IMG/VR virus record: IMGVR_UViG_3300027983_000043
Span: 1 to 37,245 of that record
DNA: 37,245 bases
From: a virus
Strand: one strand, 5' to 3'
The notes beneath the pieces are model-generated. The model was not told where the DNA came from. It made no database searches and worked only from the letters and a program-made list of their open reading frames with translations. Shown here one piece after another: positions 8,037 to 31,892 of the stretch. How positions within the stretch are numbered: the first letter of the stretch is position 1; the number at the start of each line of letters is the position of its first letter. The position numbers were made by a program, and so were the translations under genes.

Positions 8037-8055
8037 TTATCACGACAGGCAACCG

Positions 8056-8439
8056 ATGAACTTTACAAGAGAATATGCGATATCTGAGTCCGATATTTTG
8101 AATGGGCTAAGAATGGTTCGCAAGGTGCGCGATGCCTTTGCACTTGGGCTTGGTAGGCTCATGCGGTCGCAGGGGTTATCACAAAAACAATTTGCCCAGA
8201 AATTCGGGACCACTGAAGCAACGGTTTCTCGCTGGATGACTGCGGAAAAAATACCGAATTACCCGACAATTGACCGGATCTGTGAGTTCTTCTCAGTTGA
8301 CCCTCAGGTGCTTTTGTCGCCGGACGAATCATTGAGTATCGCTGGTCACGGAAAAATCGTTTTAGACCTTGAGAAGATCGCAGCCGAATCAGGCTATATC
8401 ATTCAAAAAAGGACTCTTAAGCGACCAAAGAAAATGTAA
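8056..8439 (+). CDS. XRE-family (Cro/CI-like) HTH transcriptional regulator
   Basis: The 127-residue product starts MNFTREYAISESDILNGLRM; a longer frame from 7984 has no SD and would run through the operator. Residues about 35-90 hold a canonical XRE helix-turn-helix: LGRLMRSQGLSQKQFAQKFG, TTEATVSRWMTAEKIPNYPT, IDRICEFFSV. The C-terminal tail is short and basic (KRTLKRPKKM), with no S24 peptidase domain, so it is not a RecA-cleavable CI. It lies between divergent early operons beside an operator-like repeat and probably controls both. The SD is weak. Confidence 0.85.
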   Translation: MNFTREYAISESDILNGLRMVRKVRDAFALGLGRLMRSQGLSQKQFAQKFGTTEATVSRWMTAEKIPNYPTIDRICEFFSVDPQVLLSPDESLSIAGHGKIVLDLEKIAAESGYIIQKRTLKRPKKM

Positions 8440-8568: not shown

Positions 8569-8647
8569 TTACATCCGGATTTTCCTCCCGAACCTAGCAG
8601 CCGCTGGGTATTTTTCGTTTTAAAATATATTTTGAGTTTTGAATAAG

Positions 8648-9460
8648 ATGCAATTCAGTAGACATCCAAGCTATTTCGATTTCGATCTAGCGCGAAAACA
8701 AGGCGACTACGCAAAGCGGTTCACTGCTGGTTACGAGATCGCGTCTACTGTAAAAACCGGGCTCTCTCTTTTTGAAAAAAATGTCTGGGCTCCTGCGCTG
8801 CTTAAAGACAACTACCGTTTGCAGGAAAACTTCATTCAAGCGCAGCTGTTTGGTATCGATATCGACGATCCTGGGTACGACTTAGCGCAGGCATTAAACG
8901 AGTGGTGCGATAGCTTTCACATTATCGGCACAACAAAAAATCATCAGAAGCTAAAGCGCGGTCTGGTCTGTGATCGGTTTAGAATCATCGGTGCATTTGA
9001 AAAACCAATCACTGATTCTGCGCAGTATGTCCTTAATATAAAAAGCATTCAAAGCAAATATGGCGGCGTAGACACATCATGCCAAGAGCCCGCTCGTCTA
9101 TTTTATCCTTGCGCTAAGGTACTTAGTCACTGCTACGATGGATACCTCTACCCTGTGCAAGAATTTCAAGTGCGCAAAAGACCTCAGATTCAAAAAATCT
9201 ACGAGGGCGGAACACTGCCTTTGTGGGTTGTTCATTTTCTTTCGAAAGGCGAGCTACCAGCATTTAACAAGTTTGCAGACAGCCGAAACTGGACGATCTG
9301 GCTAGTGGCTCTTGCGATGCTGAACTCTGGTTATTCGCCAAGTGATATCGAATCTAGGGTCAATGCTGCTCCGTTCAACAGGGAAGGGATAAAAGACAGC
9401 GACGTGAAAAGTCGAATCAAGAGTGCAGTGAAGAAATATGCAAAGGAGTGCGAAGTTTGA
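8648..9460 (+). CDS. Archaeo-eukaryotic primase (PrimPol)-type DNA primase
   Basis: The 270-residue protein begins MQFSRHPSYFDFDLARKQGD; a TTG three codons earlier is possible. It has the AEP core. FGIDIDDPG supplies the D-x-D metal motif, and SFHIIGTTKNHQK supplies the x-x-H motif. DRFRIIGAFEKPI and SCQEPARLFYPC supply the third strand/basic motif. A C-terminal helical region (SPSDIESRVNAAPFN) is like those of phage primases. It is followed with a 4-nt overlap by the helicase-like gene, giving a split primase plus helicase rather than a fused enzyme. It should synthesise primers for phage replication. Confidence 0.8.
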   Translation: MQFSRHPSYFDFDLARKQGDYAKRFTAGYEIASTVKTGLSLFEKNVWAPALLKDNYRLQENFIQAQLFGIDIDDPGYDLAQALNEWCDSFHIIGTTKNHQKLKRGLVCDRFRIIGAFEKPITDSAQYVLNIKSIQSKYGGVDTSCQEPARLFYPCAKVLSHCYDGYLYPVQEFQVRKRPQIQKIYEGGTLPLWVVHFLSKGELPAFNKFADSRNWTIWLVALAMLNSGYSPSDIESRVNAAPFNREGIKDSDVKSRIKSAVKKYAKECEV

Positions 9461-10977
9461 AAAATAAAAAGATCTTGATGAATTACGAGAAGGTCGCTCA
9501 CCCTGATAGCCCGGATAAGCCTTCAAAAAGGCACCTTAACCTCGCTGAAATCTACGAAAACTGTGTTGCCCTGATCAATGGCCACAATATTTTCAGCGTA
9601 AATTTATCGGTCATAGTGGACGATGGCGGAAAGATCCTGATCCTAGAAAAGACAGATGCACTATTCGCTTGGTTTGGTCGCATCGGTTTAAACGTAGTTT
9701 GGACTCATGGCGGGTGCTCAAAAAACGAATTCTTTCAATTCATGCGGCAAGATCTCCGGCAGTATGACCGTATTGATAAGTACCCACACTTTCCAAAAAT
9801 ACCAAATGTCTACTACTGCGCTAGTGTTCCGAAAAAAGAGTACACAGGAGCGATCGACGAGCTGCTTTCTCTCTGGGAGTTTCATTCAGATTTTGACCGC
9901 GATCTGGCGAAAGCTTTCATCTGTACTTCATTCTGGGGCGGACCCACAGGAACACGTCCAGCATTCTTTATTGAAGGAGACGGCGGCGCTGATGGGCATG
10001 ATAAAAACAGGGGCGTAGGAAAATCCGAGTTAGCTAAATTGGCCGCATCTTTGACAGATACCAGTAGCATCGATTGCTCACCAAGGTTATCAGGTGAAGA
10101 GATCGCGAAGAAAATTGCAAATTCAAGAACCGACACGAGGGTGATTGTTTTCGATAACGTGAAATCTATCAAACTCTCAAACGGTGACCTTGAAGGATTT
10201 ATAACCAGTGAAGCAATCTCGGGCTGGAAGCTCCACACTGGTCAAATCTCGGTTGGTAATTACTTCAGTTGGGTTTTCACGATGAACGAAGCGAGCATGT
10301 CAAACGACTTTGCTACTCGCGCCGTATGTATCAGGCTTTCTCGTCCTCAGTACCACACCGCTTGGGGGCGTAAAAAAAGAGATCTCATCAAAAACAGAAG
10401 AGACGATATTATATCCGATATTCAAAACATTCTGGCTCGCCCAGCTGTTGAACGAAATACGAGTTTTAGGTTTTCAGACTGGTATCTTGATGTGATGTCT
10501 AAAGTTAATCCGAGTGATGAGTTCGATAAGAAAATAAAAGAGCGGCAAGCGAGTGTAGACGGTGACGACGATGACGGTGAGGATATAAGCGAGAAGTTTT
10601 GTCAGGAAATATCTGACAGGGTTGTTTACGGGGTTAACCACAACCAAGAAATCTCGCTTGACCCGAGTACGGGTGTAATCCTAGTCAGCAAAGCTATTGC
10701 CGCGAAATGGGTCAGGGACTTATTAAACACAAAGTACATGAGCACGAGATGCGCCACTTCGTTAATAAAGCGAAGCAGAGTCCCAGGAATTCTTGGTGAA
10801 TTCAAAACCAAAACGGCTCGGTGCTGGGTTTTTTCGTTCGTTAAAAACGGTAACTTTAAGGGAGCTTATTTGATCGATAACAACCTTAGAAATGTGAAAC
10901 TTCATAGTTTTGATAAGGGCGGATACGACATCGGCGATAACGTAGTTCCTATAAAAAAAGAGGGGCTGGGGAAATGA
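9457..10977 (+). CDS. AAA+/SF3-like replicative helicase
   Basis: The 506-residue product is assigned from TTG 9457, which has AAGGAG eight bases upstream and overlaps the primase stop (TTGA); an ATG at 9478 is an alternative. The ATPase core is central: FFIEGDGGADGHDKNRGVGKSE (split here as FFIEGDGG and NRGVGKSE) contains Walker A G-V-G-K-S, and VIVFDNV is Walker B. YFSWVFTMNEASM holds a sensor-1 Asn, and FATRAVCIRLSR supplies arginine-finger candidates. The C-terminal region looks like a winged-helix DNA-binding domain. It works with the adjacent primase. Whether it is strictly SF3 is not certain by eye. Confidence 0.8.
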   Translation: MKNKKILMNYEKVAHPDSPDKPSKRHLNLAEIYENCVALINGHNIFSVNLSVIVDDGGKILILEKTDALFAWFGRIGLNVVWTHGGCSKNEFFQFMRQDLRQYDRIDKYPHFPKIPNVYYCASVPKKEYTGAIDELLSLWEFHSDFDRDLAKAFICTSFWGGPTGTRPAFFIEGDGGADGHDKNRGVGKSELAKLAASLTDTSSIDCSPRLSGEEIAKKIANSRTDTRVIVFDNVKSIKLSNGDLEGFITSEAISGWKLHTGQISVGNYFSWVFTMNEASMSNDFATRAVCIRLSRPQYHTAWGRKKRDLIKNRRDDIISDIQNILARPAVERNTSFRFSDWYLDVMSKVNPSDEFDKKIKERQASVDGDDDDGEDISEKFCQEISDRVVYGVNHNQEISLDPSTGVILVSKAIAAKWVRDLLNTKYMSTRCATSLIKRSRVPGILGEFKTKTARCWVFSFVKNGNFKGAYLIDNNLRNVKLHSFDKGGYDIGDNVVPIKKEGLGK

Positions 10978-13099: not shown

Positions 13100-13339
13100 T
13101 TATTCGTTGTTCCGCTCTGGCTGCTCATCGACCTTGCCGGTCCTGGCGATCTGATCATCGCGGATGGACTTACCGACCCACATGTAAGCTTCCTCTAGTT
13201 TGGTGAGGACCAGGGATTTTGCTCTGCCATCGGCCAGAACATTAACCGATGCTTCTAGTGCGTCGAATGAAGTTTTGAAATCACCCTGCGCTTTTGCTGC
13301 TTGCTCATCGTATTTCACATAACTGAAACGTTGACTCAT
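13100..13339 (-). CDS. Acb2/Tad1-type hairpin-domain protein (anti-CBASS candidate)
   Basis: The 79-residue product begins MSQRFSYVKYDEQAAKAQGD. The segment RAKSLVLTKLEEAYMWVGKS followed by IRDD matches the conserved helix of the Acb2/Tad1 hairpin family (T4 Vs.4-related), whose typical pattern is S-L-x-x-T-K-L-E-E-A-x-M-W-x-x-K-x-I. Known Acb2 proteins form oligomers that sequester cyclic di- and trinucleotide second messengers and so block CBASS effectors. SD GGAG precedes the ATG. It lies downstream of a terminator (13372-13415), as its own unit at the end of the minus-strand accessory block. Family assignment is from motif memory; ligand specificity cannot be read here. Confidence 0.75.
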   Translation of the reverse strand: MSQRFSYVKYDEQAAKAQGDFKTSFDALEASVNVLADGRAKSLVLTKLEEAYMWVGKSIRDDQIARTGKVDEQPERNNE

Positions 13340-17500: not shown

Positions 17501-17607
17501 TTGTTCGTCTCCTGATTTGGTTTGTCTCCCCAGACTCTCACTGGATACTAATTGTATTGCAATTGCAGTGCCATTGAATCTCAATAGACAATCACAGGAA
17601 TACCGCT

Positions 17608-17619
17608 CACTTACCAAAA
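17608..17619 (-). repeat. Outlying inverted copy of the iteron motif
   Basis: Read on the minus strand this is TTTTGGTAAGTG, matching the T-T-G-G-T-A-A-G-T-G core of the array at 18351-18732. It is inverted and sits about 110 bp upstream of the gene at 16838-17500. Confidence 0.6.
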
Positions 17620-17829
17620 CGGGCAGTGGTTAAGGATTCGACGCTTTTGGATAGGAAAGTTAAGAAATCGCGTAGGTGTGCAGAAATATAGCAGATTCGC
17701 TGTCTAATGCCTGGGCAGTGAAATTGGTTAAGGATTATACAGTTTCGCCGGTTTTAGTAAGTTTAGGGGTTTTGCCTGAATACCGGAAACACGGAAAAAC
17801 GAGATATTGGTGGTTTTGAGCGGATCTGT

Positions 17830-17843
17830 CAGCGTTAACGCTG
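17830..17843. promoter_or_regulatory. 14-bp perfect palindrome
   Basis: CAGCGTTAACGCTG is a perfect palindrome in the gene-free region, with the form of a dimeric repressor or replication-protein site. Nearby, GTAACC (17946-17951) and GGTTAC (17963-17968) form a further inverted repeat. Confidence 0.45.
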
Positions 17844-18067
17844 CTATATAATTGCTGAAATCGGCTTAGTGACGCACTGACAGATAAATTCCGGTTGAAA
17901 GCTCAAATTTCGAAAAACGTCCAAAAAAGAGAAAAAATTTCCTCTGTAACCCCTTGATTCCTGGTTACGAAAGAACGGTGACGCAAACGAGTGTTTTTGA
18001 GTGTCTTCGGATACGCCAATATATTCATACGCTTGAGGGCGATGACCCGGTGACACAGTCATCCGTA

Positions 18068-18124
18068 CCTTTATATATATATATTTTATATTATACTTAT
18101 TTATTTATTTTACTCTATTAATCT
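18068..18124. other. A+T-rich tract, candidate DNA-unwinding element
   Basis: About 55 bp consist almost only of A and T (TATATATATATATTTTATAT and following TTATTTATTTATTTT). It lies about 230 bp from the iteron array, as AT-rich unwinding elements do in iteron origins. Confidence 0.5.
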
Positions 18125-18184
18125 TAAAAGAAGTGTCACTCAGTCATTATAGGTATAACCAGTATAAAATCATTGGATAAAGAT

Positions 18185-18214
18185 GATGACAAAAGGGATG
18201 ACAGAGCGATGACA
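18185..18214 (+). repeat. GATGACA triple repeat
   Basis: GATGACA occurs at 18185, 18197 and 18208, that is at 12- and 11-bp steps, one helical turn apart. Related GTGAC/GTCAC motifs occur between 17870 and 18150 (GTGACGCA, GTGACACAG, GTGTCACTC). It is a second candidate protein-binding repeat family beside the AT-rich tract. Confidence 0.45.
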
Positions 18215-18350
18215 CAGTATTTTATCTGGCATTGTATTGATTAGTATTAAGGCAGCTGAGAGCTCTGCATACCATCCAGGGGCGTTGAAGGCGGAGCCGA
18301 GTGCATGGTTTTTGATCAGCTGAGGGTCTCGGTGGTATGGCGCTGTTGAG

Positions 18351-18732
18351 GTATTGGTAAGTGTGACTTATAAGTTACAGGTTGGTGGGATTGAGTAATT
18401 AATAGGCTGATCGTGTTCGGATCATAGATAGGCCAGAGAGATCTCTTAGGGCGGTTTGGTGTGGCTGATGGTATTGGTAAGTGATGAACGTTGCTGCTGA
18501 CAGGAATGGTAAGTGATGGGTAGCGGTATTGGTAAGTATTGAGGGTTATAGTCCGCAGATGCTGAGGTATTAAGCAGTGAAGTACGGATACCGACAAGAA
18601 TGGTAAGTGAACCGTGTTGGTATTGGTAAGTGGATGTTGAGGGTTTATGCAAAAATGGTAAGGGAATCTCCCCGCTCCGCGTACAAAAATGGTAAGTGTG
18701 GCATATAAGACACACTTGGTAAAATACCAAGT
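18351..18732 (+). repeat. Iteron array (TATTGGTAAGTG family), candidate replication origin or operator array
   Basis: Direct repeats share the core TGGTAAGTG preceded by TAT or GAA/AAA. They lie at 18351, 18471, 18504, 18526, 18598, 18620, 18653 (TGGTAAGGG variant) and 18687. The array ends in a 19-bp inverted repeat ACTTGGTA-AAA-TACCAAGT (18714-18732) containing the core in both directions. Most spacings are 22, 33 or 34 bp, so sites are roughly helically phased. GTACT/AGTAC (18741-18754) follows. The region from 17501 to 19201 otherwise holds no convincing gene. Iterons plus an AT-rich tract fit a theta-type origin; a multi-site repressor operator is the alternative. Confidence 0.7.
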
Positions 18733-18872
18733 CCAAAAATGTACTTTTCAGTACAGTTAATACTGCTCAGCATTAAATGATCAATCATACCAGGCGCTTA
18801 AGGTGCTCTAGTGTCTCATTTTGCTGTTCATTAATCAGTAGTCCATTGAACGCTACAAAGACTTCCACGCAC

Positions 18873-18908
18873 TAACGTGATTTATTTACCCCTATAATCA
18901 GCACGTTA
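18873..18908. promoter_or_regulatory. Inverted repeat flanking a -10-like box upstream of the late genes
   Basis: TAACGTG (18873-18879) and CACGTTA (18902-18908) are perfect inverted arms around CCTATAATC (TATAAT at 18893-18898). No good -35 is visible, so this could be an activator-dependent promoter for the structural block or an operator. Between 18910 and 19201 I see only short hairpins (for example GGGGGTGCCCCC near 19021). Confidence 0.4.
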
Positions 18909-19201
18909 ACAGACAGAGCTCGGCCAGCGTACGCCAGCTGATAGATTAGCGTATGAACTGCTATATTTTTAGGCAGTAAATCATATGATCTGGGCAGGAC
19001 TCCAATAATATCAACAACATAGGGGGTGCCCCCCAACATGGTTGTGTTTAGTGAATCTCTTATCCACATCCCCAACAACCCCTAAAACCCAAAGTGAGCC
19101 TCCCTTGTCCGATCTCCCCCAACCAGGAACACCACCTTCCGATGCGAAATCAGCCTCCAGATCGCCGAGCGATTATCTTCCGGGCGTGCAGGAGGGGTCG
19201 G

Positions 19202-19591
19202 ATGCATAACCAGCAGCTTTCAGATTATTGGGTGCGATTTTGCCAGGAGACCGGCCTGGACGGTTTTTCCGTGGACCAGATGAAGGAGTGTGAGACCCAC
19301 GATATTTTTGTTCGCCTGTCGAAGCGTTTTGAGGCGCGGGATCTCGAAGATCCTTTATACCTCAATGCGGTTTTCGACCGCCTCCGGGAAAAAGTCATGG
19401 GTTCCCCTGCTGTTTGCGAAGCCTTAGCAGGTGCAGAGAATGAATTAGACGCCGCTCTCAAAAAGGTGAGTGAGCTTACTGCCAGGGTAGAAGGGCTTGA
19501 GCGTTACCGCTCCTACTACGAACTCGACATTGTTTCGCGCACCGGGAGTTCCGAGGGCGTGGCGGTCGCTAGAGATTTGGTGAGCCGATGA
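19202..19591 (+). CDS. First gene of the packaging block, unknown
   Basis: The 129-residue product starts MHNQQLSDYWVRFCQETGLD at an ATG with the perfect SD AGGAGG; a longer frame from 19094 lacks one. The centre is helical, and LDAALKKVSELTARVEGLER is a coiled coil. It lies upstream of the terminase genes and overlaps the next gene by 4 nt. It could be a DNA-packaging accessory, but no family is recognised. Confidence 0.65.
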   Translation: MHNQQLSDYWVRFCQETGLDGFSVDQMKECETHDIFVRLSKRFEARDLEDPLYLNAVFDRLREKVMGSPAVCEALAGAENELDAALKKVSELTARVEGLERYRSYYELDIVSRTGSSEGVAVARDLVSR

Positions 19592-20288: not shown

Positions 20289-20491
20289 CCCGAATTTTCT
20301 CCCACGAGCATCCCGACGGTGCCCCGATAACCCAGGCTGAAGTCACTTACAGGTTTCGGTGTTATGTCTGCGAATTTGTGCAGGACGTAAAAGGCAGAGA
20401 CGAGATTCCTGAGGTTTGTCCGAATTGCGAGAAACCGCAGAGCAGGAAAAAAACAAATTGGATTGAGCGTCCCAGGGAGCGTGAGTTGTGA
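20285..20491 (+). CDS. Zinc-ribbon small protein
   Basis: The 68-residue product starts MTRIFSHEHPDGAPITQAEV. RCYVCEFVQ and EVCPNCEKPQ give C-x2-C ... C-x2-C about 20 residues apart, a rubredoxin/FmdB-like zinc ribbon. The C terminus is basic. It is coupled (4-nt overlaps) with the putative small terminase gene. Confidence 0.65.
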   Translation: MTRIFSHEHPDGAPITQAEVTYRFRCYVCEFVQDVKGRDEIPEVCPNCEKPQSRKKTNWIERPREREL

Positions 20492-21306
20492 GTGATTTAG
20501 AAGCAGAAGTTACACAGGCAAACACCGACGACGAGATTGAGATTCATTACGACGACAAGGGTCTATCGTTAATGAAGTTGATCAAAAATTGGCTTGGCAC
20601 AACCAAAGCGATAAGTGAAATCCCTGCCGAGCTTTTCGAGTTAACCGAACGCGAGTTAATGAAAGAGCCCGACGATGTTCACAGGCGTCTAAAGATTTCT
20701 TTTTGGAACGAGTTCAGCGCAGCGCAGCGTCAGAAATCCGAGTACATGACTTTGCAGAATGTGATTCACGGCGTTTGCTCTTATTCGTATTGGAAAAATA
20801 AAGTTGTTACTAATCCCACTTTACTTGCGTGGCTTATCACGCCTCCCGCGCATCAGACCCTGGTATGGCAGGAGTTAATTCAGCTCGGCGAGAATAAGTT
20901 GCGCAGGGCTCTCAAGATTCAGCTCGTAGAAAAAAGATTCTGGAAAGACAAGACGGGCGAGGTCCATGTTGAGAAACGTGCGAACGTGGCTTTGATAAAA
21001 GAAGTCCGCTCCATCGTGGAAATGTTGCAAAACCGCTTGCATGGTACGGTCGTCCAGCGGCAGGAAATCCAGTCTAAATCTTTGCACGTGAATGTTAATC
21101 AGAATCAGAAAGATGTGGCACAGGACAAGCCGATGTCTGCTGACGAGCAAATGGGCGAGATTGACAAAATGCTTAAGCGCATTGAGAAAGTCGCCGCTGC
21201 CATGCCCGAGTTACCTGAAGCCGAAGTTGAGAGCGAAAGCGATCTCGTAATGAAAAAAGAAAAGAGAAAAAAGTTTGTCGAAACAGAGGCCACTTACGAG
21301 GAGTGA
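20488..21306 (+). CDS. Putative terminase small subunit
   Basis: The 272-residue product starts at GTG (MSDLEAEVTQANTDDEIEIH) with GGGAG upstream. It has a helical central domain (IPAELFELTERELMKEPDDV, LLAWLITPPAHQTLVWQELI, KLRRALKIQL) and a C-terminal part with a Gln/Asn-rich stretch and a coiled coil (QMGEIDKMLKRIEKVAAAMP), then a basic/acidic tail. Its position directly before terL, with a 32-nt overlap, and its oligomerisation-type helices fit TerS, which recognises phage DNA. The assignment is mainly from position. Confidence 0.6.
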   Translation: MSDLEAEVTQANTDDEIEIHYDDKGLSLMKLIKNWLGTTKAISEIPAELFELTERELMKEPDDVHRRLKISFWNEFSAAQRQKSEYMTLQNVIHGVCSYSYWKNKVVTNPTLLAWLITPPAHQTLVWQELIQLGENKLRRALKIQLVEKRFWKDKTGEVHVEKRANVALIKEVRSIVEMLQNRLHGTVVQRQEIQSKSLHVNVNQNQKDVAQDKPMSADEQMGEIDKMLKRIEKVAAAMPELPEAEVESESDLVMKKEKRKKFVETEATYEE

Positions 21307-23674
21307 GGAAAAACTCCTCGCTGATAAAAAGCGCGTTTTGCTCCAGAAAAGAGAGGAGTTCAAAGACGGGCTCCCCTTTTTATATGGGCACAAGTGGTAT
21401 TCTTGGCAGAGGCAATTTTACAATTCACGCTGTAATATGCGGTTATTCTCGGCTGGTAATCAATTGGGCAAAAGCTCGGTACATCAATGGGATAAAATAA
21501 ATCGCGCAACAAATTTAAAAATGCACGAAGAGTTTTGGCCAGGTAGAAAGCCGGATCTTTTCTGGTATTGGATGACTGACCAGGCGACACTAGACCGCGA
21601 AGTAAAATTAAAATGGATGCGCTGGTTACCGCAGGGTGCGTTTAAAGATTCTGACCAGTACGGTTGGAAACTCGATGCAAATAAAAAAGGGGAAGAAGTC
21701 AAGGGTATTATTTTTAACTCAGGAATAACACTTGAATTCAAGCTTTACACTCAGAGCCCAAGGAATATTCAGAGTGCGACCGTGTTTGACATGGGATGCT
21801 TTCCTCACGGCACACCCATCATTACAAAAAGGGGCACGATCCCTATCGAGCAGGTAGTGGTCGGCGATCTAGCTCTAAGCGAAGCCGGTTGGAAACCTGT
21901 TGAAAAAGTTATGACCAGAAGGTCGGACGTACTAACAAGAGAGTTTGAAAACGGTGAGATAGTTAGGGCTACTCCAGAGCATCCATACTGGACAAAAAAT
22001 CGCGGTTGGATTGCATTTTCAGACTTGAAAACAAGCGATATTTGCGTTAAACATCCCCTATGGAACCTGATAAAGAAATCGTATTATTCGAAGGTAATTT
22101 GTACACGCGTTTTCCGCAAAGCGATGACGTTCGTATCAAGAATTACTTTAGAGGCTCGCTCGGTAAGAGAAACTCTTCGAAGTTTCTCCATGTCGCTATT
22201 TGGGAAAGCCATAACAGCAGAACCGTTCCAGATGGATATGTTATCCATCACAAAAATTTCATCGCCCTTGATAATCGATTATCCAACCTCCAGCTGCTCA
22301 CCAGAAGCGAGCACACCACAATTCACAAGCTTGAAGAGTGGAAAGAAAAAGGCGTTTACGAATGTACATGCCAGAAATGCGGAGAAGTTTTCGAAACCAG
22401 GAGCTCTAAGAAATTTATTAGGTTCTGTTCTATTAAGTGTAGAAGGGTTACGGAAACTCGCAGTTGCGTATGTTGTGGAAAAGAGTTTGAAGTCAGGGGT
22501 CGGCCAAGCGAACTCAACAAGGTCAGAATTACGTGCTCGCCAGAATGTCGCAATATTAAAAGAATCCAATCAAGAGGTCATCAACCTCACAGTAGCTGAT
22601 TCTCATACCTATTTTGCCAACGGAATTTTAGTTCATAACTGTGACGAGGAAATGCCCCTTTCGTTCTGGGATGAGGCGTCCCAACGTATATCCTCAACAG
22701 GCAGACACTTTTCAACGGGTTTCACCGCGACACTAAATCAACTTATGTGGTGGCGAGCACTGGAGGGTAAAGGTGCATCAGAGAAGTTCCCGGATGCTTT
22801 CAAGTTACAGGTTTCGAAGTTTGATTGTTTGGTGTTTGATGACGGATCACCAGGTTTGTACACTGAAGAGCAAATCCATGAAGAGATTAAGAACTGTTCT
22901 TCCGAGGCCCAAGTAAACCGCAGGATTTACGGTAAATTCGCACCCGAGTCAGGTCTTAAGTATCACGCGTTTGATCCAGCGAGACATTACATCGACCCGG
23001 TGCCGATCCCGATCGACTGGCTAAGATATTCGGGTGTTGATATTGGTTCAGGCGGTGACAAAAATCATCCCGGCGCATTTTTTTTCATCGCTGTGCGTCC
23101 AGATATGAAACTCGGTTATGTATTCAAGGGCCGCAGGCTTGACGACATCGTTACAACCGCAGGCGATATTTTAAATTACTACATCGTCGAACGAGCCTCT
23201 GATGAAATGACGGATCAGGCTTACGATTATCATTCGAAAGAGTTTGGTCTCATAGCTGAGCGGGCCGGTGAAAGTTTTTCGATGGCTAACAAGTCTCACG
23301 AGCTTGGCGAGGACACGATCAACACGTTATTTGCCAATGACATGCTTTTTCTTTTCGATACCCCTGAGGTCAGAAAAATCGGGGAAGAGATGCTGACATT
23401 GATGAAGAGTACGGACAAGAGAAAGGCTGTTGACGACGCTATAGATTCGTGCCGCTACGGATTGATGTGCGTCCCATGGGACTGGACAGCTGCCATTAAA
23501 AAACTAAAGCCCGTTGATAAGAAAGAAGAAAAACCCAGAGCCCTAACGAATGAGGAATATCTTGCCGATGAAATCAAAAGACGCCGAGGCGAAACCAAAG
23601 AGGACGATCAGGAAGGCTGGGGGGAACTCGGAGCAGAGATCGATTTCTGGAACAGTTTATATTCCGGATTCTGA
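21275..23674 (+). CDS. terL: Terminase large subunit, interrupted by an intein
   Basis: The 799-residue precursor starts at TTG (MSKQRPLTRS); no ATG occurs before the ATPase motif. Walker A is GNQLGKSS at residues 61-68. Walker B, TVFDMG|CDEEMP, is split by an intein between Gly174 and Cys456. Removing residues 175-455 restores a continuous motif and a 518-residue protein, normal for TerL. The C-extein carries the nuclease domain (RYSGVDIGSGGDK, KAVDDAIDSCRYGL with acidic residues). It powers DNA translocation through the portal and cuts concatemers. A complete HNH gene overlaps the intein in another frame. Confidence 0.92.
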   Translation: MSKQRPLTRSEEKLLADKKRVLLQKREEFKDGLPFLYGHKWYSWQRQFYNSRCNMRLFSAGNQLGKSSVHQWDKINRATNLKMHEEFWPGRKPDLFWYWMTDQATLDREVKLKWMRWLPQGAFKDSDQYGWKLDANKKGEEVKGIIFNSGITLEFKLYTQSPRNIQSATVFDMGCFPHGTPIITKRGTIPIEQVVVGDLALSEAGWKPVEKVMTRRSDVLTREFENGEIVRATPEHPYWTKNRGWIAFSDLKTSDICVKHPLWNLIKKSYYSKVICTRVFRKAMTFVSRITLEARSVRETLRSFSMSLFGKAITAEPFQMDMLSITKISSPLIIDYPTSSCSPEASTPQFTSLKSGKKKAFTNVHARNAEKFSKPGALRNLLGSVLLSVEGLRKLAVAYVVEKSLKSGVGQANSTRSELRARQNVAILKESNQEVINLTVADSHTYFANGILVHNCDEEMPLSFWDEASQRISSTGRHFSTGFTATLNQLMWWRALEGKGASEKFPDAFKLQVSKFDCLVFDDGSPGLYTEEQIHEEIKNCSSEAQVNRRIYGKFAPESGLKYHAFDPARHYIDPVPIPIDWLRYSGVDIGSGGDKNHPGAFFFIAVRPDMKLGYVFKGRRLDDIVTTAGDILNYYIVERASDEMTDQAYDYHSKEFGLIAERAGESFSMANKSHELGEDTINTLFANDMLFLFDTPEVRKIGEEMLTLMKSTDKRKAVDDAIDSCRYGLMCVPWDWTAAIKKLKPVDKKEEKPRALTNEEYLADEIKRRRGETKEDDQEGWGELGAEIDFWNSLYSGF
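21797..22639 (+). other. Intein in TerL at Walker B (281 codons)
   Basis: Block A starts at Cys1 (CFPHGTPIITKRGTIPIEQV, VVGDLALS). Block B has the T-x-x-H motif (TPEHPYWT, precursor residues 233-240). Block F is VINLTVADSHTYF and block G is LVHN followed by Cys+1. These are the standard splicing residues of a class 1 intein. The roughly 170 residues between blocks B and F are not a LAGLIDADG or HNH domain in this frame; they are the out-of-frame translation of the HNH gene at 22060-22599. The functional part is therefore a mini-intein with a long linker. Confidence 0.92.
22060..22599 (+). CDS. HNH homing endonuclease nested in the intein in an alternative frame
   Basis: The 179-residue product starts MEPDKEIVLFEGNLYTRFPQ, a full-length HNH N terminus. 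The core is KFLHVAIWESHN, then DGYVIHHKNFIALDNRLSNL, then LLTRSEHTTIHK, with the H-N-H residues visible. Two Cys4 zinc modules follow (CTCQKCGEVF...CSIKC; CVCCGKEFEV...CSPEC). The frame is -1 relative to terL, with an in-frame TAA at 22048-22050, so it must initiate independently. No SD is visible. Its last codons overlap intein block F. By analogy with other intein endonucleases it would cut inteinless terL alleles to drive homing. Confidence 0.88.
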   Translation: MEPDKEIVLFEGNLYTRFPQSDDVRIKNYFRGSLGKRNSSKFLHVAIWESHNSRTVPDGYVIHHKNFIALDNRLSNLQLLTRSEHTTIHKLEEWKEKGVYECTCQKCGEVFETRSSKKFIRFCSIKCRRVTETRSCVCCGKEFEVRGRPSELNKVRITCSPECRNIKRIQSRGHQPHSS

Positions 23675-24023
23675 AAAAAAGGAGGATACAAAAACTGCCT
23701 CTGGACTAATTTTGGATGTTAAGTCAATATGTAAGTTAATAGAATCATCCTCCAAGTGCGGTGTCTCCCGATTGAAACTCGGAGACCTTGAGATCCGCTT
23801 TAATGACTCTGCAAAGCCCGCAGAGCCGACATATCCCCAATATGATGAATTCGCTGAGTCTAACGACATTGAATCAGCACCAACGTCAGGCGATAGACCG
23901 TCGGCCAAGATCCCTAAGGATTTGGTGCAGCGTTTTGCTGAAGAGCAACAGCTAATCGACGATCCTCTTGCCTTTGAAGACCTGCAAGTTGACATGCAGC
24001 AGGGACTTTTTGGGGATGGATGA
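23568..24023 (+). CDS. Unknown protein between terminase and portal
   Basis: The likely start is ATG 23568 inside the end of terL (151 residues); ATG 23550 and TTG 23712 are alternatives. The segment LILDVKSICKLIESSSKCGV, then SRLKLGDLEIRFND, is a short helix-plus-strand motif seen in small proteins next to portal genes, and the C terminus is acidic. A perfect AAGGAGG at 23679-23685 lies inside the gene but has no in-frame start within 15 nt. It overlaps the portal start by 4 nt. Function is unknown. Confidence 0.6.
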   Translation: MKSKDAEAKPKRTIRKAGGNSEQRSISGTVYIPDSEKKEDTKTASGLILDVKSICKLIESSSKCGVSRLKLGDLEIRFNDSAKPAEPTYPQYDEFAESNDIESAPTSGDRPSAKIPKDLVQRFAEEQQLIDDPLAFEDLQVDMQQGLFGDG

Positions 24024-26164
24024 AAAAGCACAGCGCATCTGAGCTGAACACGATGTATGACGAGGCGGTTTCCGTTGATCGGGAGCTGTTTGCTGAAATG
24101 CGTTCGAATGTTCTGCTTTTATCGGGCGAGCACTATCAGAAAAAAGACCGTGACGGCCTTCCGTCTCGTGATCATACCAGGGCTAGAAGCGAAAGATTTC
24201 AGCTTAGGCTCGTAAAAAACCATCTTCATAAGATTATAAGACACTATGGATCTTCAATTCTCTCTTCTGCTCCTGGCGTTGCTGTTACGCCCCAAAATGA
24301 CGCCGACCTCCAGGATCAAAAAGACGCCGAGCTTAATCAGGCTGTTTGGCAGCAACATAAGACTGATTACCGGATTAAAGAGCGAATTCGGCAGTGGGCG
24401 CAGGACTTCCCGAGTGTAGGCGAGCTTTGTTCGTTTATCCGTTGGGAGCCGAATGCTGGCGATGTCACAGGCTACAACCAGAGAGTCGATGAGAAAACCG
24501 GCGAGCTGATGTTTGACGAGATGGGCCAGCCTCTTGGCGACGAAGAGAGCCCGGTCTTTACAGGCAAGTTCGTAATCGAGGATCTATTCGGAGCCAACGT
24601 CTTTAGAGATCCATCCGCGAAAAATATGCGCGATGCCCAGATGATTGGCTTCACCAAAGAGACCAAAAAAGCTGATTTAAAAGCTCGCTACAAAGGCCAG
24701 GAAGAAAAACTCGAAGGCATCGAAAACGGAGCCAAAGAAGAGTTTGTTGTCTTTGATAATGCTAAAAGTTCATACAGCAAATCGGCTAAAGATAGCGTTT
24801 TGCTCAGACATTATTTTTTCAGGAAGTGTGGTGATTACCCGGAAGGGTACTTTTATATTACCGCAGGCCAAACCGTTTTGGAAGAGGGTCCGCTCCCGTT
24901 CGGTATTTGGCCGATCATCTGGGCAGGCTTCGACGAGTTACCGACTACGCCACGCGCAAGATCAATAATCAAAGTAGCGCGTCCATATATCGCCGAGATC
25001 AACAGGGCATCCAGTCAGCTTGCGATGCACCAGATCACGATCGGCGACGACAAGATTCTGTATCAAAAGGGTTCTAAGCTGGAACAGGGCGCACTCTTAC
25101 CAGGCGTTCGGGGCATAAGCTTTCAGGGACGAGAACCGACTGTCCTACCAGGCAGAGACGGAAGTCAGTTCCTGGGTTACATCCAGCAGCAAATCAGCGA
25201 ACTCTATTCTGTTGTTATGCTTTCAGAACTCTCTGAAGAGACGATGACCCAGATGGAGCCGATGTCCCTTTTGTACAGGGCGGCGAGTCAGCAGAAGAAA
25301 TTTTCTCTCTATATTGAGAAATTTGAGCAATTTTTGATCGATTTCGTCACAACTTTGCTTGAAATGTCAAAACACTACCTACCTGATGAAGCCGTTATTG
25401 GAGCCGTCGGTAAGGGTGAACTGATCAATCTCGAAGAGTTTAGAAAAACATCTCCCCTTCGCTACCAGATAAAAGTAGAGCCCCGAGCCGATACTTTGGA
25501 CCAAATGCTAGGTCGTCAGATGACTTTCCAGAACATACTGCAATATGTCGGAAAGCAGCTCGATAAAGAAGATATCGGTAAGGTCATGGCTCAAATGCCG
25601 TATGCAAATAAAGATGCGTTTTCTGATTTCACTATTGATGAGCAAAACGCGAAAAACGACATGCTCGCAATGGAGCGGGGCCAGTATCCTCCGATTGGCC
25701 GGGGCGATGATCCTGCGAAGATGCTTAAGAAAATTGAAAACCGGATGCGCAAGCCTGACTTTAGGTTTTTAGAACCTCAGATTCAGCAGCTATATGAACA
25801 GCGCGTTCAAGAATACATCGGGATGCAGGCTCAAATCCAAGAGCGCGAAATCGCCATGCAGTCGGACTATATCCCTATGGACGGTCCTTCGGTCAAATGC
25901 GACATGTACACCCAGGATGACCCAACAAAAGCAGCCAGCAGAGCCATGTTCCCGCAGAACGCACTCGCTTGGCTTAAGAAGCGCCTAGAAGCTCAGGGCT
26001 CTTCGTTCCAAATGCTTGAGCAGCTATCACCGCAAATGATGGCCCAGCTCGCTGATCAAATGAATAACGGTAATCAGCCAGGGGGGCCTATGACAGATCC
26101 CTCAGCCGCAGCAAACGGTGGCGGATTACCTCAGGCCATGCCAGGCCAAATGGGGACTATGTAA
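24020..26164 (+). CDS. Portal protein
   Basis: The 714-residue protein follows terL and has the podoviral portal pattern. Near the N terminus are SGEHYQKKDRDGLPSRDHTR, LRLVKNHLHKIIRHYGSSIL and RIRQWAQDFPSVGELCSFIR. A beta-rich middle (LFGANVFRDPSAKNM) follows, then a long helical region with QISELYSVVMLSELSEETMT. The Gln/Met-rich C-terminal helical tail (QMLEQLSPQMMAQLADQMNN) resembles a P22-like barrel. Length is close to P22 portal (725 aa). The dodecameric portal would be the DNA channel and terminase docking site. Confidence 0.85.
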   Translation: MKKHSASELNTMYDEAVSVDRELFAEMRSNVLLLSGEHYQKKDRDGLPSRDHTRARSERFQLRLVKNHLHKIIRHYGSSILSSAPGVAVTPQNDADLQDQKDAELNQAVWQQHKTDYRIKERIRQWAQDFPSVGELCSFIRWEPNAGDVTGYNQRVDEKTGELMFDEMGQPLGDEESPVFTGKFVIEDLFGANVFRDPSAKNMRDAQMIGFTKETKKADLKARYKGQEEKLEGIENGAKEEFVVFDNAKSSYSKSAKDSVLLRHYFFRKCGDYPEGYFYITAGQTVLEEGPLPFGIWPIIWAGFDELPTTPRARSIIKVARPYIAEINRASSQLAMHQITIGDDKILYQKGSKLEQGALLPGVRGISFQGREPTVLPGRDGSQFLGYIQQQISELYSVVMLSELSEETMTQMEPMSLLYRAASQQKKFSLYIEKFEQFLIDFVTTLLEMSKHYLPDEAVIGAVGKGELINLEEFRKTSPLRYQIKVEPRADTLDQMLGRQMTFQNILQYVGKQLDKEDIGKVMAQMPYANKDAFSDFTIDEQNAKNDMLAMERGQYPPIGRGDDPAKMLKKIENRMRKPDFRFLEPQIQQLYEQRVQEYIGMQAQIQEREIAMQSDYIPMDGPSVKCDMYTQDDPTKAASRAMFPQNALAWLKKRLEAQGSSFQMLEQLSPQMMAQLADQMNNGNQPGGPMTDPSAAANGGGLPQAMPGQMGTM

Positions 26165-29828: not shown

Positions 29829-31892
29829 ATGATTTTCAACCACCACCGGTTCCAGATCTGGAGTAAATCTCAGCATCCATATGTCCACGCACTGGCGGAC
29901 TTTGGATACAGTAATGCTGCGTTACCTGCTGGTTCAGTGACGAATCTGGAACAGGCGATGAACTGGGTTTTTGCGGTTCTGTATCCGAATACTCAGGATG
30001 CGGTCGCAACAGTCGGCGATCTCCCTGCCGTTGGAAATACAATCAACGACATGCGCGTTGTCATTGATGACGGCGACGGCAAAGCAGCAACGTACCGCTG
30101 GGAGCAACGTGAGGGTTCCGCCTCTGCCTCCTGGCACAAAATCTATGATATGGATTGGGGTTATGACTCCATTCTATCCGGGTTCCTCGGACATACGCAA
30201 GATTTATATGTGAATAAATACGGCAGAGACGATGTTGACGCAGCTGGCGACTTGCTTACAGGCATTAACGCTGGACAACATGTTTACGGCGGCAAAACTG
30301 CTGGCTCTCATCTTACTTTACATGCAAACAGCGGCGACGGGACGGGAGCGCAAACAGGCTACATCCAAGCAGCTGACAATATAAGACCGGCTACAGATAG
30401 CGTATCGTCTCTCGGAACAACAGGTGAGAGATGGCTTAAGATTTGGTCCGATGAGATTACGGTAGGAACGCTCACGCTCTCAGGCGGCTCGATATTAGAT
30501 TCCTCGGGAGCTATCGATTTCGGAAATGAGAATCTTACCACTACAGGAAGCGTCGGAGCCACCTCCGCAGGCATTGGAACGCTTTCATTAGTCGGCGGTT
30601 CCATAACCGATTCAAGTGGAGCTATTAGTTTTAACAATGAGAATCTTTCGACTTCTGGTTCTATTACTGTTGGCACTCTACTTTTGGCTGGTAGTTCTAT
30701 CACCGATAGTAGTGGGACAATAAATTTTGGAAACGAAGATCTCGGGACAACTGGGAACGTCACTGGCACAAATATATTTGGCGGCACTGGTGATTTCGGG
30801 AATATCCTGATATCTGGCAATACGATTTCGACCACTAATGCCGACGGCGATATTCTCTTAGATCCAAACGGGATCGGAGATGTCGAGATAGTCTCGGGCA
30901 CCCTCATAACACTTCATCAAATGGTGACAGGCGATGTCGCTATTGTGGGGTCTCTCGCGGCCGACGACCTGCTTTTAAACGGCAGCACAATCTCAACAAC
31001 AGCTGTAAACGCAGATATAACTTTCGATCCAAACGGCTCAGGAGATGTAATCTCAGCCGCGCATTTTATTCCCGCAATTGACGATTCTTTAGACCTGGGG
31101 GCTCCGAGTTTATCCTGGAATAATGCTTATATTTCAAACAGCATCAGTGACGGCACCAACGCGATAACGATGGCGAACCTGCTTACTTTTAGAGCAGTCG
31201 GCACTCCAAGCACAGGTCACAGTCTCTTTTGGGACGGCACAAAGTGGGTTTCCTCTGCTGCTGATACTGAGATCGACCACGGCACTATATCTGGTCTGGG
31301 CGACGATGATCACACCATATATGGTCTCTTAGCAGGCAGATCTGGGGGTCAGACACTAACAGGTGGCAGCGCAGCTAATAATAACCTGACTCTTGAATCT
31401 ACCTCTGACGTTACCAAGGGGAACATTCTATTTTCCTCGGTTCCAGCGCCAACAGCAGATAACGCGACTACGCTCGGAGCCGTCGCAAAACGTTGGACCG
31501 ACCTCCACATGAACGGCCAGGCTTTCGGGCTTAGGCTTGCCAACTACACAACCGCAGGGCGTCCCGCAGCTTCCGCAGGCGCAATCGGTCGCGTGGTTTA
31601 CGATACTGACCTCAAAGATATCTTCATCGATCTCGGCGGGACTTGGTATCAGATCTCAAGCGAAAAATATTATGTAGAGGACGCAGCCAACTGGGACGGC
31701 TCTCAAACTACCGTCACCTACGACGTATCTGGCACAGTCGATAACTCAAGGGCGCTCAACTGGGTCTTAAAAAATAACAGCAACAATTATATGCAGGTCG
31801 GCGCTGAAATCGATTTCCCTACCGTAGGGCAGGTCAGGGTCACCGTAGGCATTGAGCTCGCAGCCGGTACTTACACATTGGTTGGGAGGTAA
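29829..31892 (+). CDS. Tail fibre / tailspike-like protein with internal repeats
   Basis: The 687-residue protein starts MIFNHHRFQIWSKSQHPYVH. The middle has three copies of a module like GTLxLxGGSITDSSGAIxFG followed by NENLTTTGS (about 30465-30765) and two like STTxADGDIxLDPNGxGDV (30805-31060), typical of elongated trimeric beta fibres. The C-terminal part includes LHMNGQAFGLRLANYTTAGR and a lectin-like ending. It is probably host-receptor binding, with the N terminus attached to the tail. Confidence 0.75.
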   Translation: MIFNHHRFQIWSKSQHPYVHALADFGYSNAALPAGSVTNLEQAMNWVFAVLYPNTQDAVATVGDLPAVGNTINDMRVVIDDGDGKAATYRWEQREGSASASWHKIYDMDWGYDSILSGFLGHTQDLYVNKYGRDDVDAAGDLLTGINAGQHVYGGKTAGSHLTLHANSGDGTGAQTGYIQAADNIRPATDSVSSLGTTGERWLKIWSDEITVGTLTLSGGSILDSSGAIDFGNENLTTTGSVGATSAGIGTLSLVGGSITDSSGAISFNNENLSTSGSITVGTLLLAGSSITDSSGTINFGNEDLGTTGNVTGTNIFGGTGDFGNILISGNTISTTNADGDILLDPNGIGDVEIVSGTLITLHQMVTGDVAIVGSLAADDLLLNGSTISTTAVNADITFDPNGSGDVISAAHFIPAIDDSLDLGAPSLSWNNAYISNSISDGTNAITMANLLTFRAVGTPSTGHSLFWDGTKWVSSAADTEIDHGTISGLGDDDHTIYGLLAGRSGGQTLTGGSAANNNLTLESTSDVTKGNILFSSVPAPTADNATTLGAVAKRWTDLHMNGQAFGLRLANYTTAGRPAASAGAIGRVVYDTDLKDIFIDLGGTWYQISSEKYYVEDAANWDGSQTTVTYDVSGTVDNSRALNWVLKNNSNNYMQVGAEIDFPTVGQVRVTVGIELAAGTYTLVGR

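Follow-up and report, generated by a model that had tools for sequence, protein, structure and literature searches.

The locus described here raises the question of whether a series of short direct repeats, located in a large intergenic region of a phage genome, belongs to an origin of replication or serves the late operon at whose head it lies. The window, i.e. the whole stretch of DNA that was analysed, is a linear IMG/VR virus record of 37,245 bp. Besides genes for an ERCC4-type nuclease, an SSB, a serine recombinase, an endolysin and other structural proteins, it comprises the following genes, with the primase-like and helicase genes spanning 8.6-11.0 kb:

8047-8439, XRE protein (HTH regulator)
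8642..9460, + strand, primase-like protein (PHROG DNA primase, E 2.7e-8)
9448..10977, + strand, likely D5-type helicase (weak DUF5906 match, E 0.011), candidate initiator for the adjoining origin
17500 (likely ATG), - strand, leftward gene next to the intergenic region
19202..19591, + strand, first late gene (start codon placed by us inside ORF 19094-19591)
20488..21306, + strand, positional terS, with homologues in approximately 70 relatives and a small-terminase role assigned from its position
21275..23674, + strand, large terminase gene (TerL), interrupted by an intein
24020-26164, portal-type protein, named from position and size, without family match

Searches of phage and plasmid collections by DNA similarity found no named phage or plasmid resembling the window, and searches with the helicase and portal proteins found no match in named phages. 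A scan for the helicase across viral contigs gave zero matches, and its structure model was too poor for use (pLDDT 36). One contig (L008) is 99.92% identical to the window and carries an identical array; its array is not independent evidence, because the contig is a second one of the same virus. Twelve of the 14 differences between the two are packed into 224 bp (30755-30978) of a putative structural gene (29829-31892), representing either local hypervariation or misassembly. The DNA of the TerL intein contains, in another + frame, an ORF for an HNH endonuclease (22060-22599; Pfam HNH_3, E 2.5e-14), across which the intein frame stays open; this ORF resembles the hidden out-of-frame HNH described earlier (PMC11855218), with the difference that it sits within an intein. 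A 79-aa protein encoded at 13100-13339 (- strand) matches the Acb2/Tad1 hairpin domain (E 2e-8), which suggests a putative counter-defence protein against cyclic-nucleotide signalling.

The intergenic region (17501-19201) contains no recognisable gene, as stated in the initial annotation for some 1.7 kb, and the antisense ORFs over the repeats have no PHROG match. Its cis elements are:

17608..17616, - strand, ninth repeat copy, inverted, exact TGGTAAGTG, situated approximately 108 bp before the leftward gene
17824..18235, origin-like cluster of GTGACA-type sites (17824, 17874, 17942, 18047, 18131, 18195, 18206, 18224) flanking the AT tract on both sides
18065..18135, AT tract (86% A+T), candidate unwinding element
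18355..18698, + strand, array of eight direct TGGTAAG(T/G)(G/A) copies (TGGTAAGTG-like)
18362..18379, palindrome TGTGACTTATAAGTTACA, overlapping array copy 1
18714..18732, terminal palindrome ACTTGGTAAAATACCAAGT
19022..19034, GGGGGTGCCCCCC, possible degenerate counterpart of a G-run found in relatives (see below)

The inverted copy, the GTGACA/TGACAG cluster and palindrome TGTGACTTATAAGTTACA were absent from the initial annotation. The eight-copy repeat itself, already described there, is far above chance: with at most one mismatch, the motif has 16 sites in the whole 37-kb window compared to 5.5 expected, a number reached by none of 100 shuffles, and the 8-mer ACTTACCA occurs seven times within 520 bp compared to 0.04 expected. 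The copies start at 18355, 18475, 18507, 18530, 18601, 18624, 18656 and 18690, all on the + strand, and are spaced by 120, 32, 23, 71, 23, 32 and 34 bp instead of mostly by 22, 33 or 34 bp as proposed earlier. The near-helical spacing claimed for them does not hold: no significant phasing was seen at 10.5 bp (R=0.42, p=0.26), and a common helix face, the mark looked for in a cooperative operator array, is not supported. A palindrome closing the array is indeed found at 18714-18732, and is composed of TTGGTA half-sites only, not of two opposed full copies; its interpretation as a terminator was rejected, as it has no clear T-run. The array region has an ordinary predicted RNA fold (z -1.3) and no match in Rfam.

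Two types of unit recur in the array, GGTATTGGTAAGTG and C(A/G)(A/G)(A/G)AATGGTAAGTG, and a search of viral contigs for exact GGTATTGGTAAGTG returned at least 120 stretches, nearly all with single matches, and was uninformative. A 39-nt block occurs twice, 94 bp apart, similar blocks of 25 nt are separated by 335 bp, and the array grew partly via duplication of longer blocks. This visible segmental duplication could be taken to mean that the array arose merely by mutational expansion of a single site and that its copies add little to what one would do; we regard this as very improbable, given that the cores are constant among copies while the intervening sequences differ, and that repeats recur at the corresponding position in other lineages.

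Direct repeats beside an AT-rich tract in a gene-free region represent the general architecture of iteron origins, and the initial annotation proposed on this basis a plasmid-like or theta-type origin or, alternatively, a cooperative repressor array. The AT tract is, as it stated, a real feature: no other 70-bp stretch of the window is richer in A+T. It is surrounded by the second repeat cluster (GTGACA/TGACAG), distinct from the array repeats. Several of the relatives that show a primase-helicase gene carry lineage-specific iterons downstream of it, around the part of the locus with the highest AT content: GTGACA in L140 and L158, GGGTGCAA in L148, GGGAGCTA in L179 and a TGGACGG-type motif in the contig of L009. 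Locus L163 presents a similar picture with GGGTAACA and a primase-helicase gene match approximately 1.9 kb away, and seven of the 11 origin-type array regions of relatives contain the AT maximum of the fetched locus. A matrix trained solely on the GTGACA sites of the L140 and L158 origins was applied to the whole window. The densest 450-bp stretch in 37 kb was 17801-18250, with 8 of the 44 top-scoring sites compared to 3 in the runner-up stretch, and none of 300 column-permuted matrices equalled this cluster. The matrix derived from L158 alone gave the same result; with L140 alone, 0.7% of the permuted matrices reached the score anywhere in the window and none at 17801-18250. Because the matrix from the relatives' origins peaks at this position around the AT maximum, the likely origin is the GTGACA/AT element to the left of the array, at 17824-18235, where repeats of the type seen at relatives' origins lie by the AT-rich tract.

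The intergenic region thus very probably holds, as judged from its sequence, a theta-type iteron origin, whose iterons are the GTGACA sites and not the TGGTAAGTG repeats to which the initial annotation had assigned this role. That the TGGTAAGTG copies would themselves be the origin iterons, with the AT tract as their unwinding element, has in its favour the proximity of direct repeats to the AT-richest tract of the window within a large gene-free region. We nevertheless consider it improbable: GTGACA iterons like those at the origins of relatives already stand on either side of the AT tract, the first array copy lies 220 bp away from this tract with these other iterons in between, the array spacing is irregular and unphased, and 11 origin regions of relatives show no enrichment for a TGGTAAG matrix (p=0.85). 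The latter result lowers rather than excludes an origin role, because iterons differ between lineages.

A likely replication function of 17824-18235 is predicted by precedent. The oriL and oriR of phage SPP1 consist of direct repeats by an AT-rich unwinding element and are bound by a phage initiator (PMC6316719); their layout of repeats plus AT-rich DNA is like that of 17824-18235, and the TGGTAAGTG array lies outside this element. SPP1 differs in using gp38 with a DnaB-type helicase, whereas the relatives of the window encode a primase fused to a D5-type helicase. In satellite phage P4 the alpha protein binds repeats at the origin, and pRN1 has an essential cis element downstream of its replication gene (PMC4234260). 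Both possess an SF3/D5-type primase-helicase with a winged helix, to which we liken the system of the window; pRN1 has a stem-loop instead of iterons, and the replication genes of the window are located 7 kb from the origin-like element, a misfit with the layout in relatives. The place predicted by that layout, between the SSB gene and the leftward genes (12.6-13.1 kb), was rejected as origin, no array being found there.

The array lies between the leftward genes and the late operon, upstream of the terminase genes, at 1.8 kb from terS with four small genes in between. Relatives were recovered with portal and TerL profiles (44 and 73 viral-contig loci, partly overlapping, and approximately 100 in all), and are distant. 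Three more TerL relatives (L250, L251 and L252) come from genome assemblies that carry the labels Bdellovibrionales, Acidobacteria and Bacteroidetes, which are possible host leads. In most relatives with the region in view, a G-run, GGGGGG(T/A)GGGGG, precedes the gene at the terS position (e.g. L140:7261, L172:2460 and L193:8543), often with a C-run approximately 30 bp after it. In 19 of 37 loci (window included), the 500 bp preceding the G-run contain three or more occurrences of one 8-mer, compared to 11% of control windows; four or more are seen in 5 of 37 (window included), compared to 1.7%. These repeats are lineage-specific: TGTAAnTTTTACA directly before the G-run in L140 and L172, CAAAGGC in L154-L156 (with L160 similar), and CTTGAGCC in L210. 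The position of the array corresponds to that of these repeats. The canonical G-run is absent from the window; its possible degenerate counterpart GGGGGTGCCCCCC is approximately 290 bp from the array, compared to approximately 50 bp in the layout of relatives.

At least 120 viral contigs contain the exact G-run 14-mer GGGGGGTGGGGGTC, and in nearly all of them no TerL or portal belonging to this group was detectable; an apparent TGGTAAG enrichment upstream of it in these non-family contigs was a composition effect, gone once the matrix columns were permuted. As for contig ends that might reflect terminase cleavage, one contig (L247) starts in the G-run and three unrelated contigs end 22-39 bp past such a run; G-runs also break assemblies.

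Conservation of the repeat motif among related phages, which the initial annotation proposed to check and which is not seen at origins, is modest upstream of the G-runs (p 0.013-0.19). The TGGTAAG matrix scores at least 11 bits in 5 of 39 such regions, compared to 1.3 expected (p=0.013), other statistics under a strict column-permutation control giving p 0.02-0.19; a laxer control gave 2.5e-5 and is not relied on. CATTGGTAAGTAGTTG is found in L143 and L170, approximately 48-57 bp before the G-run. The arms of the copy-1 palindrome match palindromes that L188 and L203 (also L191 and L193) carry approximately 40-60 bp ahead of the G-run: GTGTGACTTATAAGTTACAG is identical to GTGTGACTTATggctATAAGTTACAG, the L188 palindrome in reverse complement, except for a shortened centre, and 13 nt are common with L203. 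In a scan with half-sites of five relatives, these arms rank 8th and 10th window-wide. This sequence link to the relatives, modest and in part drawn post hoc, is suggestive, not decisive. Another palindrome upstream of the G-run, TGCACGATAATAnnnnTTATCGTGCA, is common to L163 and L176, whose TerS are just 22% identical.

Our preferred explanation, to which we give an even chance, is that the array consists of lineage-specific recognition sites in a control region that heads the late (terminase) operon, distinct from the origin iterons. A phage DNA-binding protein would occupy the direct copies. For its role we favour packaging initiation as most likely, by analogy with known systems, with control of late transcription nearly as likely. 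In packaging, the small terminase subunit would bind the array and TerL would cut near the downstream G/C-run element, while the origin adjoining on the left (17824-18235), with GTGACA iterons around the AT tract, would probably be bound by the phage primase-helicase. At the pac sites of SPP1 and SF6, direct repeats are arranged in several sets around the promoter of terS and show no more than moderate conservation among related phages, with SPP1 TerS acting at the repeated pac boxes (PMC4737164); in SPP1 this repeat-carrying site at terS is separate from the origins (PMC6316719, PMC4737164). The array occupies the same kind of place, its repeats lying ahead of the terminase operon, in its presumed promoter region, as those of relatives do; the SPP1 pac overlaps terS itself, whereas the array is at a distance from it, and the DNA-binding domain of SF6 TerS showed little specificity for pac repeats. 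Against packaging count the missing canonical G-run, the four genes before terS, the modest motif link, the lack of a TGGTAAG array of comparable size among the relatives, the fact that TerS identity tracks upstream k-mer sharing no better than TerL identity does, and the model of the TerS-position protein, which had no significant PDB match (Foldseek best E 0.5; VIA-align best Z 3.6) and listed an SPP1-like small terminase at an insignificant level only.

The position of the array at the late-operon head also fits cooperative binding by a regulator. The array would then be an operator or activator array through which a regulator, e.g. the XRE protein (8047-8439) or another, switches the late operon and, via the copy at 17608, leftward transcription as well. 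The eight copies point to the late operon and the inverted one to the leftward operon, an HTH regulator is encoded in the window, and operator-like palindromes recur at the corresponding place in relatives. On the other hand, sigma-70 promoter-like matches are no more frequent than expected and no promoter is clearly tied to the copies, while the G-run associated with the relatives' repeats corresponds to no promoter element that we know of. We treat such an operator array as possible, yet less probable than the broader reading of lineage-specific recognition sites.

For the recognition-site reading, one further step is tentative and rather unlikely, slightly more so than the operator array: the terminase-proximal region would represent a new type of packaging signal, in which a conserved G-run, accompanied in some members by a palindrome approximately 50 bp upstream, is combined with lineage-specific, fast-changing arrays (here TGGTAAGTG) that set terminase specificity.

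The array and the neighbouring likely origin belong to known kinds, a phage iteron origin plus terminase-proximal repeats. Their distinction separates two cis elements, an origin and a terminase-operon array, that reading of the sequence alone would merge, and origin iterons are recognisable across phages whose replication proteins are barely similar. Proof of a packaging role would make the wider G-run/repeat pattern the more interesting result; should array and G-run together constitute a packaging signal, this large uncultured phage group would allow changes of the terminase recognition site between lineages to be studied.
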